A DNA stretch of 36,988 bases from assembly GCA_021737445.1 (NCBI GenBank), contig JAIPDY010000002.1, positions 1 through 36,988 of the forward strand. Reading direction: 5' to 3'. The notes under the pieces were generated by a model, which saw only the letters and a program-made list of their open reading frames with translations, had not been told where the DNA came from and did no database searches. The translations under genes and the position numbers were made by a program. Below, in pieces: positions 14,744 through 31,338 of the stretch. This DNA comes from Desulfotignum sp. GTDB lineage: Bacteria > Desulfobacterota > Desulfobacteria > Desulfobacterales > Desulfobacteraceae. Each line of letters opens with the position of its first letter. Position 1 is the stretch's first letter.

Positions 14744-15475
14744 ATGGATCAGGACAAAAAAATTGCATTGCTCATCGATTGTGACAATGTAAGCCATAAA
14801 TCAATTGAGGGTGTGATCAATGAATTGTCAAAATATGGAAAAGTGAACATCAGACACGCCTATGGGAACTGGAAAAGCGACAGCATGAAAGGATGGGAGG
14901 AAAAACTTCATCCATACGCAATAAAACCTATTCAGCAATTTGTCTATACAACCGGGAAAAATGCTACAGATGCCGCAATGATAATAGATGCCATGGATCT
15001 GTTATATACCCAGAAAATAGATGCATTCGCCCTTATGACCAGTGACAGTGATTTTACTCCTCTTGTTATGAGAATACTGTCCAACGGCATAACGGTTTAC
15101 GGTTTTGGTGAGAAGAAAACACCGCCTCCGTTTGTCAAGGCATGTTCACAGTTTATATTTACTGAAAATCTGGAAACGGCAGAAGACGAAGAATATAAAT
15201 CATCGAAAAACGGAAATTCAAAAAAATCAAGAAATGAACTTCGGGGGGATACGGGACTGGTCAAATTATTGAGAACGGCGGTGGAGCAGTCTGCCGGGGA
15301 AGACGGCTGGTCACATCTTGGTCAGGTAGGTCAGTATATTTCCAACAACACCTCCTTTTCTCCGGTAAACTATGGATACAAAAAACTTGGAGAGCTGATA
15401 AGGGCCTGTGATTTATTCCAAATTCAAATGAGAAATGAAAATTCTGTCATGTACATCAAGGATAAAAAAAATTAA
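14744..15475 (+). CDS. NYN domain (LabA/PIN-like RNase) protein with C-terminal OST-HTH/LOTUS-type domain
   Basis: 'IALLIDCDNVSHKSIEGVINELSKYG', 'DAAMIIDAMDLLYTQKIDAFALMTSDSDFTPLVMRI', C-terminal 'LVKLLRTAVEQSAGEDGWSHLGQVGQYI...YKKLGELIRACDLFQI'. Confidence 0.85.
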   Translation: MDQDKKIALLIDCDNVSHKSIEGVINELSKYGKVNIRHAYGNWKSDSMKGWEEKLHPYAIKPIQQFVYTTGKNATDAAMIIDAMDLLYTQKIDAFALMTSDSDFTPLVMRILSNGITVYGFGEKKTPPPFVKACSQFIFTENLETAEDEEYKSSKNGNSKKSRNELRGDTGLVKLLRTAVEQSAGEDGWSHLGQVGQYISNNTSFSPVNYGYKKLGELIRACDLFQIQMRNENSVMYIKDKKN

Positions 15476-22150: not shown

Positions 22151-23436
22151 GGCAGGTGCCTGATGATGGTATCGATCTGGGTGGCCAGGGTCTGATGGTC
22201 CACGGCTGAGTTTTTTTTCAGCACGTTGGTCATCAGTGCGACCAGGTAGATCCGTGAATCCGGGTGTTCGACGATGGCCACCGAATTCATCACGTTTTCC
22301 TGGTTGCCCATGTATTTTCTGCAGGTAAACCCCGGTTCCGGCACACACCGGTACAGGCTGCCGGATTTGAAATACACGGCAGCGCCCCCAAGGGCCGGGG
22401 AGGAGGCATACCGGATCCGCCGGGCCGTGGTGTACATCAGGCGCTTGATTTCCAGGCTGGACCAGGGATCCACCAGCCGGCCCTGTTCCAGGGCCACCAG
22501 AAATTTGAGCAGTCCTGCGGGCGTGGCCCGGCTGTCCCCTGTGCCGGGAATCCGTTTTTTTCCTTCACTGGTAAACAGGCTGCCCAGATGAAAGTCCTGC
22601 CGGGAGAGACCGGCCCGGGTCAACGGTTCGTTCACCACCTCTTCGGCCAGATCGGACAGGGCTGTTTTTGGCATTGTGGCAAAAAAATGGTCTTCGGTTT
22701 CCCGATCAGGCGGATAGCCGGACCCGAAATGGCGCATCAGGATGAGCTCCTTCCACAGCACGCTGGCCGCGGCGTTGGCGCTGGCCGAAATCATGTGATC
22801 CGCCCATTCATACAGGGAGAACTGGTCCTCGGTCCGGACGGGCCGGCTGCTGTATTCACCGGTTTCCGGCACAAACAAGGGGATGGTGTGGTGATCAGAA
22901 ATGATCCAGGGCCCGGCCGTAACCATCCGGGTTTTCAACAGGTGCCGGCGATCTTCCACATCATCGGGAAACAGGCGCTGCAGCTGGGCGAACAGCCCGG
23001 CAGCCACGGCCAGCTTGCCGACACTGCCCACTGGAAATCTGCGGTCGGCCTGCTGCCATGCCATCCTGGCCGGACGGCCCGGTGAGATATCCAGTATAAC
23101 CAGGGAATAGCTTTCATCCCGGTCAGGGAACAGGGACCGGATCTGTTTCTGGAAACCGGGGTCGATCAGGGCACCGGCTTCTGACAGATCCAGGGGGGTG
23201 GATGTCAGGTGAAGTGTGATCTGTTCCGTGGCAAGCCTGGCACCCGGCGGCAGCACCGGTTTTTCGGTCTGGCCGGATAACACAGGCGCCAGACGTTGCA
23301 GCCGGCGGATCCCGGTGGTGTCATACCCGTCCACTGGATAGGCCCGGGCAGATGCCAGGGACAGGAACAGGCTGATGCACAGGCAGGCGAGTCCGGTCAT
23401 TAAAACAGGAATTGAATGGGGATAGCGGTCTGTCAC
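22147..23436 (-). CDS. Second exported serine hydrolase, class A beta-lactamase-like, 429 aa
   Basis: GTG start with AGGAGGTGA; signal peptide; 'PVGSVGKLAVAAGLFAQL' (SxxK), 'SASANAAASVLWKEL' (SxN), 'YFKSGSLYR' (KSG). Confidence 0.78.
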   Translation of the reverse strand: MTDRYPHSIPVLMTGLACLCISLFLSLASARAYPVDGYDTTGIRRLQRLAPVLSGQTEKPVLPPGARLATEQITLHLTSTPLDLSEAGALIDPGFQKQIRSLFPDRDESYSLVILDISPGRPARMAWQQADRRFPVGSVGKLAVAAGLFAQLQRLFPDDVEDRRHLLKTRMVTAGPWIISDHHTIPLFVPETGEYSSRPVRTEDQFSLYEWADHMISASANAAASVLWKELILMRHFGSGYPPDRETEDHFFATMPKTALSDLAEEVVNEPLTRAGLSRQDFHLGSLFTSEGKKRIPGTGDSRATPAGLLKFLVALEQGRLVDPWSSLEIKRLMYTTARRIRYASSPALGGAAVYFKSGSLYRCVPEPGFTCRKYMGNQENVMNSVAIVEHPDSRIYLVALMTNVLKKNSAVDHQTLATQIDTIIRHLP

Positions 23437-26363
23437 GGGGTCACCTCCTGATGCAGTAAAACGGTTTTCGGGGTCTGGTTCATCCGGTCCAGTGACTGCA
23501 GATAGGCCAGCATTCCGGCTTTCTTGTTTTCGACAAACGGACGGATCTGAAACAGGCGCAGAGATCCGTTGATAAATCCCAGCTCGATGTCATAGGGGCC
23601 ATCTCCTTCGATCCCGGGCGTGCCCGGAATCGTCTGCCGGACCCGGTGGACAAGATCCCGGATGGCCTGCCGGTCATCGGGTGTCAGCACCGGCTGATCA
23701 AAATGAACCGCTGCCCTTTCCACCCCGCCGGACGCCGGCAGCCTTGTGGCCTTGGGCTCCCTGGACGGGGAAAAAAGAATGTCCTGTCCCGTGCCGGTCA
23801 TCAGATAGGTCTCAGCGGCCTGCCCTTCCACAGCCCCTCCGGCGCCCCGGCTGAAGGCGGCCGTGACATCTTCTCCGGAACCGGACACAATGCCGTGGGT
23901 GATGACCACTCCTGACCGGTCCACATTCACCGTGGGAAGCAGCAGGATGGAGGGAAACACGTTTTCCGGATTTTCAAGGTATTTCTGGCGCCACATATAG
24001 CTTCTTTCGCTGTAGGGAGAGGCCCATACATCCCGGATAGCCTGAAGAATGGCCGTCTGATTCCTGACATTGAAAACGGTGAGGTTCAATCCGGCGCCGG
24101 TAAAATCGCTGATGTCTTCCATGTTGGTGTCACTGCGGATAAACACCGGCACCTCGCCCAAAGGGGCCTGGAACACCGCCTGGAACTGCTCTGCCAGGGC
24201 AATTTCCAGTCCGGACAGCAGCGGCATGGTGCGGATGGCGGACTGAAGCTCTGCCAGCTCTGCCATCTGCCCGGTCTCCCCATTGGCACGGCGGTCCAGG
24301 GCCCGGGTCAGAAACTGCCAGTAACTGCCGCCGGTGCCGGGCATGGGCTGGTCCATGTGCTGCCGGAATATGCCAAAGGGGATCACTATACCCTCTCCCA
24401 CAAAATCAGGAAAAAGGTGTTTCAACTCCCCCAGGTTCGCGGCCTTGGGACCGCAGATCCGGCCGGAATCAACCGCCCTCAGGTCACTCAGGCGGATCAA
24501 TGCGGTTTGTTCAAGCACGATCTTTTCAGTGGGCACCCGGAACCGCTCCTGTTTTCTCTCCCGTTTCCGGACCAGCCGGCGCTCTTCTTCTGTCAGCCGG
24601 TGATCCGGCTTGAGCACAATCACCCCGCCCGGGGATACTGCATAGAACAGGGTCTGCCCGGCCCAGGGCACCAGGTTGTCCAGGCCCTGCCGGGAGACCA
24701 CGGTATTGGGAATGCCCAGGTTCCTGGCCAGCAGCTGGACATGGGAGACCAGGTTGCCTTCGGAAACCGTGAACATCCCGGCCACCGGCTTGAGTTCCGG
24801 CGGAATGGTGCCAAAGCCGTAAATCTTTGCCGGATCGGTCTCTTTCATGGCGTTGCCCGTGCCGGGGATTTCCAGAACACCGTAAGCCAATCCCGCGTTC
24901 ATGCCCCGAAAGTGGCGGGATGGAACCCCGTCGGGCAGTTGATGGGTAATGCCGGAAAAATGCTGCACCATCCCGGCCAGTATTCCCAGGGTGTCCCCCA
25001 GTGGCAGCAGGATCGAGGACCGGACCCGGTCATCCATGAATCCGGCCGTTTGGGGTTCGAACCCGGAGAACCGCTGGATTTCCGGCAGATAAACGGACTG
25101 AATCATGGCGGTTCCCCAGTCGACCGTCCGTGTCAGCTGTTCAGCCTTCAGGCGGAACAGCTCAAACGGCAGGGCGTTCTCCTGCGGTGACGGCTGAAAG
25201 CGTTCCACTGCCTCCCATTCCCAGATTTCCAGGTATCCGCACCCGGCAGCGGCCTTGATCAGGACCCGGCATTTGTCCATCAGCTCTTCCAGGGTCCGGG
25301 GCTCCCAGGTACGGATGGTTGAAAACAGGATATGCTCCATGTCAATGGAGATATCCATCAGGGGGAGTCTGAGCTGGGGGGGCGCTTGTGTCACTGTCGA
25401 ACGGATCTTGAAAATCAGGTCTGCCATGTCCTGGAACGGGTTGGCGGTTCCGGTGGGGTATGCAGTGCCGCCCCGGGCCAGGTATTCTTTTGATACGGCC
25501 AGGGCGGACCGGTTTTCAGACAGAGCGGCCAGGCTCATGGATTTTGCCGCCAGCAGTCTGTCGAGGCGGTGGATAGGTTTAACCGCATACTCGGCCTCAA
25601 GGTTCAGGAGCAACTCCTTGAACAGGGCAGCCTGCCGGCTGTCAAGTCCCTGTACCCTGCTTTTCACAAAATCTTTGACCCGGTCAAGGTCCCCGGCATC
25701 GGGCTGACCGTGAATCTTGACCCGCAGGTCCGTGAAATCGGGAATCTGGTCGGACAGGGTTTTGGATACGGCCCGGATGGTGTGCAGCCGGTCCTGGTTC
25801 TGAGAGAAGTGGGGGATGGTCCGGCAGGCCTCCCGGATCACAAAAAACCGGTCCTGGATTTGTTCGGGCCTGCCCAGCACATGGTCCAGGAACCGCCCGC
25901 CCCAGGCTGCCTCATCCTCTGCCTGGATCGCCCCCCGGTAATATCGGGCCCGGCGGTAGATCCACCCGTCATCCACCTGGAACAGATACCGGACCAGTGC
26001 CTGCTGCTTTATCCGGGAATGATCTGCGGCCGCATCCCAAATGACGTCATGGGAAGTTCCGGACAGCACCAGGTCCAGATAGATCTGCCGGGTGCCGGCA
26101 AGGTCGGAAACCCACTGTTTGGGCAACCCGTGCTGTAATCCACCGGGCACTGGACACCGCTGTGCAGCGGGCAGCACCCGCCCGTCCGGGCAGAACCATT
26201 TGATGGCCTGGTACGGGCCTCTGGGATCTTTTTTCAACGCCTGAACCATGGATGCGATCTCCGGATCGGTCAGGGCCAGGGCCGGGGATTGCCAGAAAAT
26301 CACCAGGCAGAGCAGGGCCTGGCATACGAATACCAGCCATGTTGTTTTCAATCGTTTATTCAT
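23433..26363 (-). CDS. Exported PEP/pyruvate-binding (PPDK_N-type ATP-grasp) protein with glucan-water-dikinase-like domain order
   Basis: ORF 23433-26498 trimmed to ATG 26363 (signal peptide 'MNKRLKTTWLVFVCQALLCLVIFWQSPALA'); 'VSEGNLVSHVQLLARNLGIPN' (phospho-His-like), then 'CGPKAANLGELK', 'VFIRSDTNMEDISDFTGAGLNLTVFNV', 'YDIELGFINGSLRLFQIRPF' (PPDK_N). Confidence 0.8.
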   Translation of the reverse strand: MNKRLKTTWLVFVCQALLCLVIFWQSPALALTDPEIASMVQALKKDPRGPYQAIKWFCPDGRVLPAAQRCPVPGGLQHGLPKQWVSDLAGTRQIYLDLVLSGTSHDVIWDAAADHSRIKQQALVRYLFQVDDGWIYRRARYYRGAIQAEDEAAWGGRFLDHVLGRPEQIQDRFFVIREACRTIPHFSQNQDRLHTIRAVSKTLSDQIPDFTDLRVKIHGQPDAGDLDRVKDFVKSRVQGLDSRQAALFKELLLNLEAEYAVKPIHRLDRLLAAKSMSLAALSENRSALAVSKEYLARGGTAYPTGTANPFQDMADLIFKIRSTVTQAPPQLRLPLMDISIDMEHILFSTIRTWEPRTLEELMDKCRVLIKAAAGCGYLEIWEWEAVERFQPSPQENALPFELFRLKAEQLTRTVDWGTAMIQSVYLPEIQRFSGFEPQTAGFMDDRVRSSILLPLGDTLGILAGMVQHFSGITHQLPDGVPSRHFRGMNAGLAYGVLEIPGTGNAMKETDPAKIYGFGTIPPELKPVAGMFTVSEGNLVSHVQLLARNLGIPNTVVSRQGLDNLVPWAGQTLFYAVSPGGVIVLKPDHRLTEEERRLVRKRERKQERFRVPTEKIVLEQTALIRLSDLRAVDSGRICGPKAANLGELKHLFPDFVGEGIVIPFGIFRQHMDQPMPGTGGSYWQFLTRALDRRANGETGQMAELAELQSAIRTMPLLSGLEIALAEQFQAVFQAPLGEVPVFIRSDTNMEDISDFTGAGLNLTVFNVRNQTAILQAIRDVWASPYSERSYMWRQKYLENPENVFPSILLLPTVNVDRSGVVITHGIVSGSGEDVTAAFSRGAGGAVEGQAAETYLMTGTGQDILFSPSREPKATRLPASGGVERAAVHFDQPVLTPDDRQAIRDLVHRVRQTIPGTPGIEGDGPYDIELGFINGSLRLFQIRPFVENKKAGMLAYLQSLDRMNQTPKTVLLHQEVTP

Positions 26364-26389
26364 TACCACCTCATGATCATCATGATTTG

Positions 26390-26515
26390 TCATTTTGCCC
26401 CCAGGGATGCGGTGATCAGGCAGGCACCGCGTGAAACCAGTGCCGCACCAGGGATGGTCCACACCCATACCAGTATAATATTGCCGGCAACGCCCCACCG
26501 CACGGCCGAACGCCG
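26390..26515 (-). pseudogene. C-terminal remnant of an inorganic phosphate transporter (PiT family)
   Basis: Minus-strand frame reads 'RRSAVRWGVAGNIILVWVWTIPGAALVSRGACLITASLGAK*', matching the PiT C-terminal pattern (RLSAVRWGVAGNIVxAWxLTIPxAAL); no start or upstream domains. Confidence 0.65.
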
Positions 26516-27610: not shown

Positions 27611-27880
27611 TCACGATTTCGCAATGCAACGCCTGTGATTTATGATGATGACAAATTCAGGAATACCGCCCATCTGGAAGGGGCGATTCCCATGAGCGAG
27701 TTTCTCAGAATGAAGCCGGACCTGGCATTGGATACCCGTATCATCTTTTACTGAGGGTGACCCGGCGACAGCTCTGCGGCAAGGATTGCCGCACAATACA
27801 TGGCAGACGGGTACACACGGATTCAGGTGCTGGATAACGGGATAGCCGGCTGGAAGGAAGCAGGTTTCAACATCCTGTAA
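27611..27880 (+). CDS. Rhodanese-like domain, candidate selenoprotein with two in-frame UGA (Sec) codons; 5' end undefined or truncated
   Basis: Frame reads 'SRFRNATPVIYDDDKFRNTAHLEGAIPMSEFLRMKPDLALDTRIIFY(UGA)G(UGA)PGDSSAARIAAQYMADGYTRIQVLDNGIAGWKEAGFNIL*'; UGA at 27752-27754 and 27758-27760, TAA at 27878-27880; homologues typically have FYCxCPxxxSAARxA. Confidence 0.7.
27775..27793 (+). promoter_or_regulatory. Candidate bacterial SECIS apical hairpin
   Basis: TGCGGCA-AGGAT-TGCCGCA: 7-bp perfect stem, 5-nt loop with G at loop position 2; loop begins 21 nt after the second UGA and 27 nt after the first. Confidence 0.6.
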
Positions 27881-28039: not shown

Positions 28040-29659
28040 ATGCGCGTGGTCCTCGTTTTTCCGCCCAGGGCCAGCGCTACCTATGTGCCCCTGGGAATTG
28101 CATCTTTGGCGGCGTTCATTGCATCGGCCGTGCCCGGTACCGGGGTCCGGCTGGCTGATCTGAACATTGATACCTGGATCCGGCTTGCAAACGCCGACCC
28201 CCATGGCCAGGATCTCATGGATTTTGTCCGGGGCAAAACCGGCACCTTTACGGATCCCGGCCAGACCCTTTCAATTAAACCGGTATGGGACCGCCTCAGA
28301 AGACAGATGTCTCTGCTGTGCCGCCAGGCTGAAACCTTTGTTGCCACCGGGGAGGCGGATACCCTCTTTTTGTCACTGCTTGGCAGCCATACCCGGCAGA
28401 TCATGGCATCTGATCCCGAACTGGTGTGCATTTCCGTGCTTTTCCCTGAGCAGATGCCTTTTGCCGCTGCCCTGGCCCGCACCCTCAGGCAGGCCATGGG
28501 AAAAAAATCCGGCACCCGGTGCCGGGTGGTGATGGGCGGCGCCATGATGTCAGCCCTGTCGGTGCAGGACCTGCTGACTGCAGTCCCGGAAATAGATGCC
28601 GTTGTCAGCGGTGAGGGGGAAGATGCAGTGGCCGCCCTTTGCACCGGCATACCATTTTCAGATATCTCAGGGCTGACGTTCAGGCAGGAAAATGAGATCA
28701 GAACCAATCCCAAATCCCCGGCCATTTCTCTCAAAAACCTTGCAGCCCCTGATTTTTCACAGCTGCCCCTGGATGCCTATTTCAATCCTGTCCCGGTACT
28801 GCCGGTGCTGTTTTCCAGGGGATGTGCCTGGCGCAAATGCCGGTTCTGCTCCCACAACTTCTCCTTTGGCGGCTATCGCAGAAAACCGGTTGAAGCATTT
28901 GTGTCGGAACTGGCTGAATATCAAAGGACTCTGGGGGCTTGCCATTTTTATTCAGCAGATGAATATATTCTGCCCCGGGACATGGATGCCATCTGTGAGG
29001 AGATCCTGGCCAGGGGGCTGAAGATCTCTTTTCATATTCTGGGCAAACCCACGGCCGACTGCACCCCCGGCAGCCTGGCCCTGTGGTCCGCCGCCGGATG
29101 CCGGTGGATCGGCTGGGGCATTGAATCCGGTTCCCAGCGGCTGCTGGATCTGGTCAACAAGGGCACCTGTGTCCGGGATGTCCAGACCGTGCTGAAAGAT
29201 TCGGCTGCCGCCGGCATTTCCAATCTGGGACTGATGATTTTCGGCCTTCCCACCTCCACCGACCAGGACCTGGACCAGACCCTGGCATTTCTAAGCGATG
29301 CCTATGATAGTCTGGACGGTCTGACCGCCAGTGCCTTTGTGCTTTTTGACAACACCCATTTTGCAAGGAACGCTTACCGGTACGGCATGCACATTGACGG
29401 ACCCGGCATACTGATCAACAGCGGCAGCTCCGCTGTCCGGAGTACCCGCCTCAAATTCAGGGAACTGGCATCCAGCGGCTCGCTGCGGTTGCCCCGTGGG
29501 GCATTGGAGGTCTCCCGGTGGCAGCGGTACCGCAGATGGCTGGGTGAGGTGCCCCTGCTGGAACAGCTGCCCCCGGAACACTGGCTGATTCATGTAAGCG
29601 GCAGATGGTTGCCTGCGGTGCCTGCCCTGCCGTTTTCTTCAGACACGGAGACTGCCTGA
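28040..29659 (+). CDS. B12-binding domain radical SAM protein
   Basis: N-terminal B12-binding-like 'VVLVFPPRASATYVPLGIASLAAFI', cluster motif 'FSRGCAWRKCRFCSHN', 'WGIESGSQRLLDLVNKG'; ribosome-binding site AACAGGAGATA. Confidence 0.88.
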   Translation: MRVVLVFPPRASATYVPLGIASLAAFIASAVPGTGVRLADLNIDTWIRLANADPHGQDLMDFVRGKTGTFTDPGQTLSIKPVWDRLRRQMSLLCRQAETFVATGEADTLFLSLLGSHTRQIMASDPELVCISVLFPEQMPFAAALARTLRQAMGKKSGTRCRVVMGGAMMSALSVQDLLTAVPEIDAVVSGEGEDAVAALCTGIPFSDISGLTFRQENEIRTNPKSPAISLKNLAAPDFSQLPLDAYFNPVPVLPVLFSRGCAWRKCRFCSHNFSFGGYRRKPVEAFVSELAEYQRTLGACHFYSADEYILPRDMDAICEEILARGLKISFHILGKPTADCTPGSLALWSAAGCRWIGWGIESGSQRLLDLVNKGTCVRDVQTVLKDSAAAGISNLGLMIFGLPTSTDQDLDQTLAFLSDAYDSLDGLTASAFVLFDNTHFARNAYRYGMHIDGPGILINSGSSAVRSTRLKFRELASSGSLRLPRGALEVSRWQRYRRWLGEVPLLEQLPPEHWLIHVSGRWLPAVPALPFSSDTETA

Positions 29660-29830
29660 ACACATGCCATCACAGGTCTGCTGCAGCCGGAAACAGGTAA
29701 AAAATACAGATACTGAATCTGCAAAAACTGTGCGCATCATTCATGCCGGTTTTTCAGCAGTCTGGGTTCTGAAAATTTTTTTATTCCGGATTTAAAATCT
29801 TTAAAAATTTGTTGTTTTTTCCTTTTGTCA

Positions 29831-29858
29831 TTGCTTGTAAAATTCATGGGTATAAAAT
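29831..29858 (+). promoter_or_regulatory. Candidate sigma70-type promoter TTGCTT-N16-TAAAAT
   Basis: In an AT-rich leader 44 nt before the mttB-like start. Confidence 0.35.
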
Positions 29859-29901
29859 AAAAAAATATTATAACTTCGGAATGTTAAAAAGGAGACGTTT
29901 C

Positions 29902-31338
29902 ATGGGCATGCACACTGATGAACTGTATTTCAAACCCAGGCTGCAGGTGATCAACCAGGACCAGATGGGGCAGATCCACATGGCCACACTGGATGTGCTG
30001 GAGCACACCGGTATTAAACTTACCCATCCCAGGGCCCAGGCGCTGCTGTCAGGGGCCGGTGCCAGGGTTGAAAAGGACCGTGTAAGGATTCCTTCCTGGA
30101 TGGTGGAACAGGCCATCCGGCAGGCACCCAAAAGAATAGTGCTTGGCAGGCGCACAGGAGAGCGTACCGTGATCCTGGAGCGGGACAAATCCTGGTTCGG
30201 GCCCAGCCTGGACTGCATCGATTACATGGACCCGGCCACACACCAGCGCAGCCGGTTTGAAAGCCGGCATGTGGAGGTCACGGCAGCCCTGTGCGACGCT
30301 TTGCCCGGGTTTGACTGGTGCATGACCATCGGCATGGCCGATGATGTACCGGCGGACACGGCAGACCGGATTGTGGCCAGAAAAACCCTGCAATTTTGTG
30401 AAAAACCCCTGGTGTTCTGCTGCAAGGACACCAACAGTGTGGCAGACATCTATGAAATGGCCCTGCTGCTGTGCGGCGGAAAGGACAATTTTGAAAAAAC
30501 CCCGTGCATTGTACACTATTCCGAGCCCATCTCCCCGCTGGTGTATTATGATCCCGCAGTGGACAAGATCCTTTTTTGTGCTGAAAAAGGCATCCCCCTG
30601 ATCAATTTTCCCGCCCCCCAGGCCTGCGGAACTGCGCCGGCCACCTTTGCCGGCACCATTGTCCAGGCCAGTGCTGAATCATTGAGCGGCCTGGTCATGC
30701 ACCAGCTGGCCAATCCGGGTGCCCCGTTTATTTACGGTGCCTTTACCACCATCATGGACATGAAGACCTCAATCTTTTCCTACGGGGCCATTGAGTTGAG
30801 CCTCATGACCGCGGCCCTGGCCCAGATGGCCCAGCATTACCAGCTGCCTTTTTTCGGCACAGCCGGTGCCACGGATGCCAAGTTCTGTGATGCCCAGGCC
30901 GGGGCGGAAGCCGCATTCCAGTGTCTGAGCGCTGCAGCCGCAGGTTCCGGCCTGGTGCATGACTGCAGTTCCTGGATGGACCACGGCAATCTGGTGTCTC
31001 CCGAATTCATGGTGCTGGTGAATGATATTGTGACATCAGTCAAACACTATATGGAGGGGATTGCCGTCACACAGGAGACCCTGGCCCTGGATATTATCGA
31101 TAAGGTCGGCCCGGGCGGGCATTATCTCCGGGAAAAGCACACCATGGATCACTTCAGGAAGATCAAATATTCGGATCTGTTTGAACGTCAGATCCATGAG
31201 AAATGGAAAAACAACGGGGCCAGAAAACTGGAGCAGCGCCTCCAGGAGCTGACTTTGGAAAAGATGAAGCACCGGCCGGCACCTTTATCAGAAGCAATCA
31301 TCAAAGAACTGGACCGTATGCAGGCGGCCTGGAAATAG
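29902..31338 (+). CDS. Trimethylamine methyltransferase (MttB) family protein, non-pyrrolysine type
   Basis: MttB-like: 'ATLDVLEHTGIKL', 'PAPQACGTAPATFAGTIVQASAESLSGLVMHQLANPGAPFIYG', C-terminal 'GGHYLREKHTMDHFRK'; no internal amber codon; start chosen after AAAAAGGAG. Confidence 0.85.
   Translation: MGMHTDELYFKPRLQVINQDQMGQIHMATLDVLEHTGIKLTHPRAQALLSGAGARVEKDRVRIPSWMVEQAIRQAPKRIVLGRRTGERTVILERDKSWFGPSLDCIDYMDPATHQRSRFESRHVEVTAALCDALPGFDWCMTIGMADDVPADTADRIVARKTLQFCEKPLVFCCKDTNSVADIYEMALLLCGGKDNFEKTPCIVHYSEPISPLVYYDPAVDKILFCAEKGIPLINFPAPQACGTAPATFAGTIVQASAESLSGLVMHQLANPGAPFIYGAFTTIMDMKTSIFSYGAIELSLMTAALAQMAQHYQLPFFGTAGATDAKFCDAQAGAEAAFQCLSAAAAGSGLVHDCSSWMDHGNLVSPEFMVLVNDIVTSVKHYMEGIAVTQETLALDIIDKVGPGGHYLREKHTMDHFRKIKYSDLFERQIHEKWKNNGARKLEQRLQELTLEKMKHRPAPLSEAIIKELDRMQAAWK

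Follow-up and report, generated by a model that had tools for sequence, protein, structure and literature searches.

A predicted SECIS hairpin behind two closely spaced UGA codons in a rhodanese-like gene of Desulfotignum

Geometry of the hairpin

Does the short hairpin that follows two in-frame UGA codons in a Desulfotignum sp. contig direct selenocysteine (Sec) insertion, and if so, at which of the two codons? The window, by which we mean the whole 36,988-nucleotide stretch of contig JAIPDY010000002.1 that was analysed, reads TGA GGG TGA CCC GGC GAC AGC TCT GCG GCA AGG ATT GCC GCA at positions 27752 to 27793. On the plus strand, the first UGA (UGA1) occupies 27752 to 27754 and the second (UGA2) 27758 to 27760; they are followed, on the same strand, by the 5' arm of the stem (TGCGGCA, 27775 to 27781), the apical loop (AGGAT, 27782 to 27786) and the 3' arm (TGCCGCA, 27787 to 27793). 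The arms are fully complementary, which bears out the perfect 7-bp stem with a 5-nt loop described in an earlier note, and a recount in the sequence placed the start of the loop 27 nt past UGA1 and 21 nt past UGA2, the two spacings given there. The published model of bacterial SECIS (bSECIS) elements requires an apical loop of 3 to 9 nt with a G within its first two positions, an upper stem of 4 to 16 bp, a UGA-to-loop spacing of 16 to 37 nt and a minimum free energy of -7.5 kcal/mol or lower (PMC13188914). The window hairpin lies within all four limits for UGA1 and UGA2 alike, with a 5-nt loop (AGGAU, containing the G), a 7-bp stem, spacings of 27 and 21 nt and a folding energy of -11.9 kcal/mol. 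This energy is that of the hairpin alone, with a z score of -2.9 against dinucleotide shuffles; for a longer, 49-nt piece, z was only -1.5.

Geometry alone is weak evidence. Fourteen of the 1440 TGAs on both strands of the window, about 1%, have a perfect 7-bp, G-loop hairpin downstream at SECIS distance, compared with 0 to 2 per approximately 530 TGAs in six shuffled controls, and geometry as sole proof of a SECIS was rejected on this ground. The caution that the Ala codons contribute to the palindrome was also fair, as resampling codons with the protein fixed and at the codon usage of the window gave a 7-bp stem with a P of about 0.009. A terminator reading of the hairpin was discarded, since a T-run is absent after the stem and no terminator was found. 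An Rfam scan of the window gave no match. The SECIS question was settled by comparative evidence and not by geometry.

Conservation of the stem-loop and Sec machinery

A first search, run on 145 related genomes and on public genomes, added 21 home-clade genes in which both UGAs occur, 59 to 90% identical over the shared part. Wider alignment-based searches, covering 395 genomes from the phylum and 389 from the order, brought the family to 69 distinct sequences, 25 with a U-x-U motif (the window copy counted) and 44 with C-x-U. UGA2, a predicted Sec codon, was kept in 69/69, and the first position was TGA or a Cys codon (TGC/TGT) in all, under a collection pattern that itself demanded Sec or Cys at both positions; four loci outside this pattern (L087, L089, L114 and L128) were left uncounted.

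With columns numbered from UGA1, the stem comprises pairs 24-42 to 30-36 and the loop columns 31 to 35. Over the 69 sequences, pair 27-39 was C-G in 24, G-C in 22 and U-A in 18, having changed no fewer than 14 times along the tree, and pair 30-36 was C-G in 36 and A-U in 28. Both of these pairs join codon third positions, so that most of their changes leave the protein unaltered. Pairs 28-38 and 29-37 were formed in every sequence. The mean number of pairs formed was 6.19 of 7, versus 4.59 +/- 0.11 (sd) when the proteins were fixed and codons resampled, and only 2.0 to 4.3 when the stem arms were slid out of place. The second loop base, column 32 (27783 in the window), was G in 69/69, across Gly, Arg and Ser codons. 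Among the 21 intact genes of the home clade, third-position entropy was 0 at each of the five codons in the hairpin; over the 23 remaining degenerate third positions the mean was 1.28 bits, with no invariant site among them. In three C-x-U genes (L038 to L040) the stem forms in a register shifted by one base, around an AGGU loop, so the covariation count slightly understates conservation. The stem-loop was kept in 25/25 sequences with both UGAs and in nearly all of the 44 with UGA2 only. The earlier note had named the lack of a conserved stem in UGA-containing homologues as the result that would tell against a SECIS; we found the opposite, a stem-loop at the same place maintained through compensatory changes. 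That the palindrome is an accident of the Ala-Ala-x-x-Ala-Ala codons, with no RNA function, is the reading favored by the resampling probability and by the comparable hairpins downstream of other TGAs of the window, but we give it almost no credence, since on the alignment it is already refuted by covariation at third positions, by the zero wobble entropy at the hairpin and by a loop G that persists whichever amino acid is encoded.

The source genome is metagenome-assembled, with best matches to Desulfotignum/Desulfobacula. Profile matches in it included selA (595 bits) and selD (349 bits), and a tRNA-Sec (74 bits) was also found by ARAGORN. The selB gene was represented by two SelB winged-helix domains; it lacks its start, at what seems to be the end of a contig, and its score lies below the NCBIfam cut-off. 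A formate-dehydrogenase-like gene of the same genome (L133, G000:C106:168-926) has one in-frame TGA and likely encodes a further selenoprotein. Stem covariation, an invariant loop G, a conserved frame and the presence of SelA, SelB, SelD and tRNA-Sec in the host all uphold the earlier SECIS reading. On each of the sequence tests the window hairpin behaved as a SECIS would, and we consider it highly likely to be a bacterial SECIS element.

The element resembles that of E. coli fdhF in being a short coding-region stem-loop after UGA, with a loop of 5, an early loop G and a spacing of 16 to 37 nt. The fdhF tip AGGUCU, read from the K-12 genome, matches the tip of most home-clade relatives letter for letter, whereas the window loop is AGGAU; in fdhF, 17 nt separate the UGA from AGGUCU, whereas in the rhodanese family the A lies 20 nt after UGA2. 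A further difference from fdhF is that one element is placed for two UGAs six nucleotides apart.

Could both UGAs instead be nonsense mutations in an ordinary dead rhodanese gene? The window copy is indeed broken by a 270-bp 5' deletion. However, the break is the deletion and not the UGAs, TAA or TAG was not seen at the UGA positions, and 24 other genes have both UGAs at the same positions; 21 of these genes are intact, with a Shine-Dalgarno (SD) sequence and an ATG. We regard a pseudogene origin of the UGAs as very improbable.

A rhodanese with two predicted Sec residues and one hairpin

With TGA translated as U, the frame reads ...TPVIYDDDKFRNTAHLEGAIPMSEFLRMKPDLALDTRIIFYUGUPGDSSAARIAAQYMADGYTRIQVLDNGIAGWKEAGFNIL*, in which the active-site stretch is IIFY-U-G-U-PGDSS. 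The protein matched Pfam Rhodanese (PF00581) with an E value of 4e-8 and 33.9 to 35.1 bits, relative to a gathering cut-off of 22.2, and the intact product would be a small rhodanese-fold protein of sulfate-reducing bacteria, about 105 residues long, with a U-x-U active-site loop. An AlphaFold2 model of an intact relative (L016) showed a single rhodanese domain with a pLDDT of 91, in which the first U sits in the loop that joins strand 60-63 to helix 67-81. In the alignment with solved rhodaneses, this U takes the column of their catalytic-position Cys (YC), so that UGA1 is a predicted Sec codon at the catalytic position (Y-U-G-U). The model lies near several solved single-domain rhodaneses; among them, E. 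coli GlpE (PDB 1gmx) shares the fold (Foldseek E 1.3e-5, TM 0.74) and the position of the first active residue but has Cys instead of Sec and a different active-site loop. A redox or a sulfur/selenium-transfer role, with a pair capable of forming a diselenide or selenenylsulfide, would be expected from the modelled site.

Among the C-x-U relatives, all 40 of the 40 members scanned matched NF041203 (rhodanese_LYCAU, form 3, CxU), with which the U-x-U protein has the rhodanese domain in common and the C-x-U relatives the C-x-U site itself. The U-x-U protein scored 39.9 to 41.3 bits, under the curated cut-off of 115, and lacks the C-x-U motif of that family, since its catalytic Cys is also Sec; it differs too in a conserved LLVCxYDD strand. 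By its sequence, it is classed as a rhodanese but not as a member of NF041203. Other double-Sec proteins, which carry both residues within a short UxxU or UxxxxU motif (Prx-like UxxU, NF041115 and TsoB NF045694), appear in Table 1 of PMC13188914 and differ in the spacing of the Sec residues and in having other folds or several domains. The same table, an inventory of 119 selenoprotein families from 2026, does not include a U-x-U rhodanese, nor was one found in the open-access literature, to which our search was confined and outside which an earlier mention, in subscription papers, is possible. Signal and protein are each of a known type; what is new is their double-Sec form, which the inventory lacks. 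The U-x-U genes make up an additional subfamily, absent from the list and models checked, which genome annotation would otherwise cut at the UGA.

The 22 home-clade U-x-U genes formed one strongly supported group on the tree. Three further U-x-U genes (L074, L082 and L127), in which single-base sequencing errors are possible, were nested among C-x-U genes outside the home clade; in them the catalytic residue seems to have changed from Cys to Sec independently. The tree requires a minimum of four switches between U-x-U and C-x-U, and, as it is unrooted, their more economical direction, from Cys to Sec, is only the probable one. Two genomes (G043 and G076) each have a U-x-U copy together with a C-x-U rhodanese copy (L031/L129 and L029/L130, respectively).

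The earlier suggestion that one hairpin could serve both UGAs gained support from the C-x-U relatives, whose lone UGA is served by this hairpin, likewise 21 nt away. No other conserved hairpin was found in the 20 nt between UGA1 and the stem. A GGG-UGA-CCC pairing around UGA2 was considered as a hairpin for UGA1 and rejected because it is not kept in relatives. Because the ribosome must pass UGA1 before reaching UGA2, because the C-x-U genes have the same element at the same distance and because a second hairpin was not found, one hairpin very probably serves both UGAs, with SelB delivering Sec twice from a single element.

It could be argued that the hairpin acts for UGA2 only and that UGA1 ends translation, or is read otherwise, as a regulatory stop. 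UGA2 is universal in the family and UGA1 is not, and 21 nt is the standard spacing of the family. Nevertheless, UGA1 stands at the catalytic position, which is a Cys in relatives, its spacing of 27 nt is inside the range of the bSECIS model, and UGA2 would never be reached unless UGA1 were read; we consider a regulatory stop unlikely, though less so than a dead gene.

In the preferred reading, by which both codons are decoded, SelB carrying Sec-tRNA-Sec would bind the G-containing loop, deliver Sec first at UGA1 and, after the ribosome had moved two codons, again at UGA2, in two loading rounds on one hairpin. The hairpin would primarily be the element of UGA2, which lies 21 nt away and is present in all family sequences; UGA1, at 27 nt, would most simply have been added by a change of TGC or TGT to TGA at the catalytic Cys codon, apparently several times. 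The efficiency of Sec insertion in E. coli is only 30 to 40% per UGA (PMC4513850), so two UGAs under one SECIS would be costly. On balance, we lean toward a history in which one SECIS is used twice in succession, SelB reloading two codons on, and in which C-x-U lineages repeatedly gained the second Sec by one base change, as the hairpin was already in range, giving a diselenide-capable U-x-U site. The U-x-U rhodanese offers a small, compact natural example of one hairpin placed behind two UGAs, in which SelB reloading is testable with short reporters, and the C-x-U and U-x-U relatives form a ready-made mutant series for the Cys-to-Sec step at the catalytic residue.

The probably truncated window copy and its neighbours

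The remaining U-x-U rhodanese-like gene in the window (27635 to 27880, plus strand) runs from family residue 25-26 to the stop codon TAA at 27878 to 27880 and has no start codon preceded by a ribosome-binding site. Relative to L045, from Desulfotignum sp. S14.Bin031, approximately 270 bp comprising the ribosome-binding site, the ATG and codons 1 to 25 are missing, while the DNA further upstream is the same. At the junction, 27638 to 27646 (plus strand), lies the 9-bp repeat ATTTATGAT, copies of which lie at 1731-1739 and 2001-2009 of L045. An upstream ATG, an SD-like sequence and an LVCIY strand are present in 21/21 home-clade relatives and all are gone from the window copy, and by the L016 model, the deletion takes two strands and one helix from the fold. 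No in-frame start with a ribosome-binding site precedes a full domain in the window copy. The first remaining in-frame ATG (27692 to 27694, plus strand) encodes a conserved internal Met (AIPMSEF) and has the SD-like sequence GGAAGGGG just before it; translation from this ATG could yield a C-terminal fragment of some 62 residues. A weak sigma-70-like site (TTCGCA-17-TATGAT, 27618 to 27646) is kept in the window and in L045, with the -10 box of the window at the deletion junction; sites of that kind are expected by chance here.

The window branch has accumulated 8 synonymous and only 4 nonsynonymous substitutions, so the loss is either recent or an assembly error. The deletion is known from one metagenome assembly, in which a minority strain or an assembly error is possible, and the low amino-acid decay fits a gene that is in fact intact in this genome and was shortened by the assembly. 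Against such an artefact, a clean 9-bp direct repeat marks the junction, as is usual for deletions, the missing N-terminal segment was not found elsewhere in this assembly, and another genome (G035) holds a different remnant; we judge it a minority possibility, and the strongest of the alternatives weighed here. Unless it is an assembly error, the window copy is probably a recent 5'-truncated remnant, and its hairpin probably a fossil of a working one that no longer directs a complete product. It would show a U-x-U gene in the course of loss. The G035 remnant (L131/L058, C993:8722-8874) retains an intact start and the first approximately 53 codons, followed by unrelated sequence, and is without both UGAs and the hairpin. 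As it differs from the remnant in the window, the gene seems to be lost now and then in the family.

No constant neighbour gene was seen within 1.5 kb across the U-x-U clade, and synteny was only local, among close relatives. The next gene downstream in the window encodes a B12-binding radical SAM protein (28040 to 29659, plus strand), and the same coding sequence follows in L045 and L016. After it, at 29809 to 31338, lies a gene for an MttB-family methyltransferase, apparently not of the pyrrolysine type because an in-frame stop is absent. Elsewhere in the window, positions 14744 to 15475 encode an NYN nuclease domain and, joined to it, an OST-HTH/LOTUS domain, and positions 23433 to 26498 encode a 1021-residue protein in which the pyruvate-phosphate-dikinase ATP-binding domain occupies only the C-terminal third.
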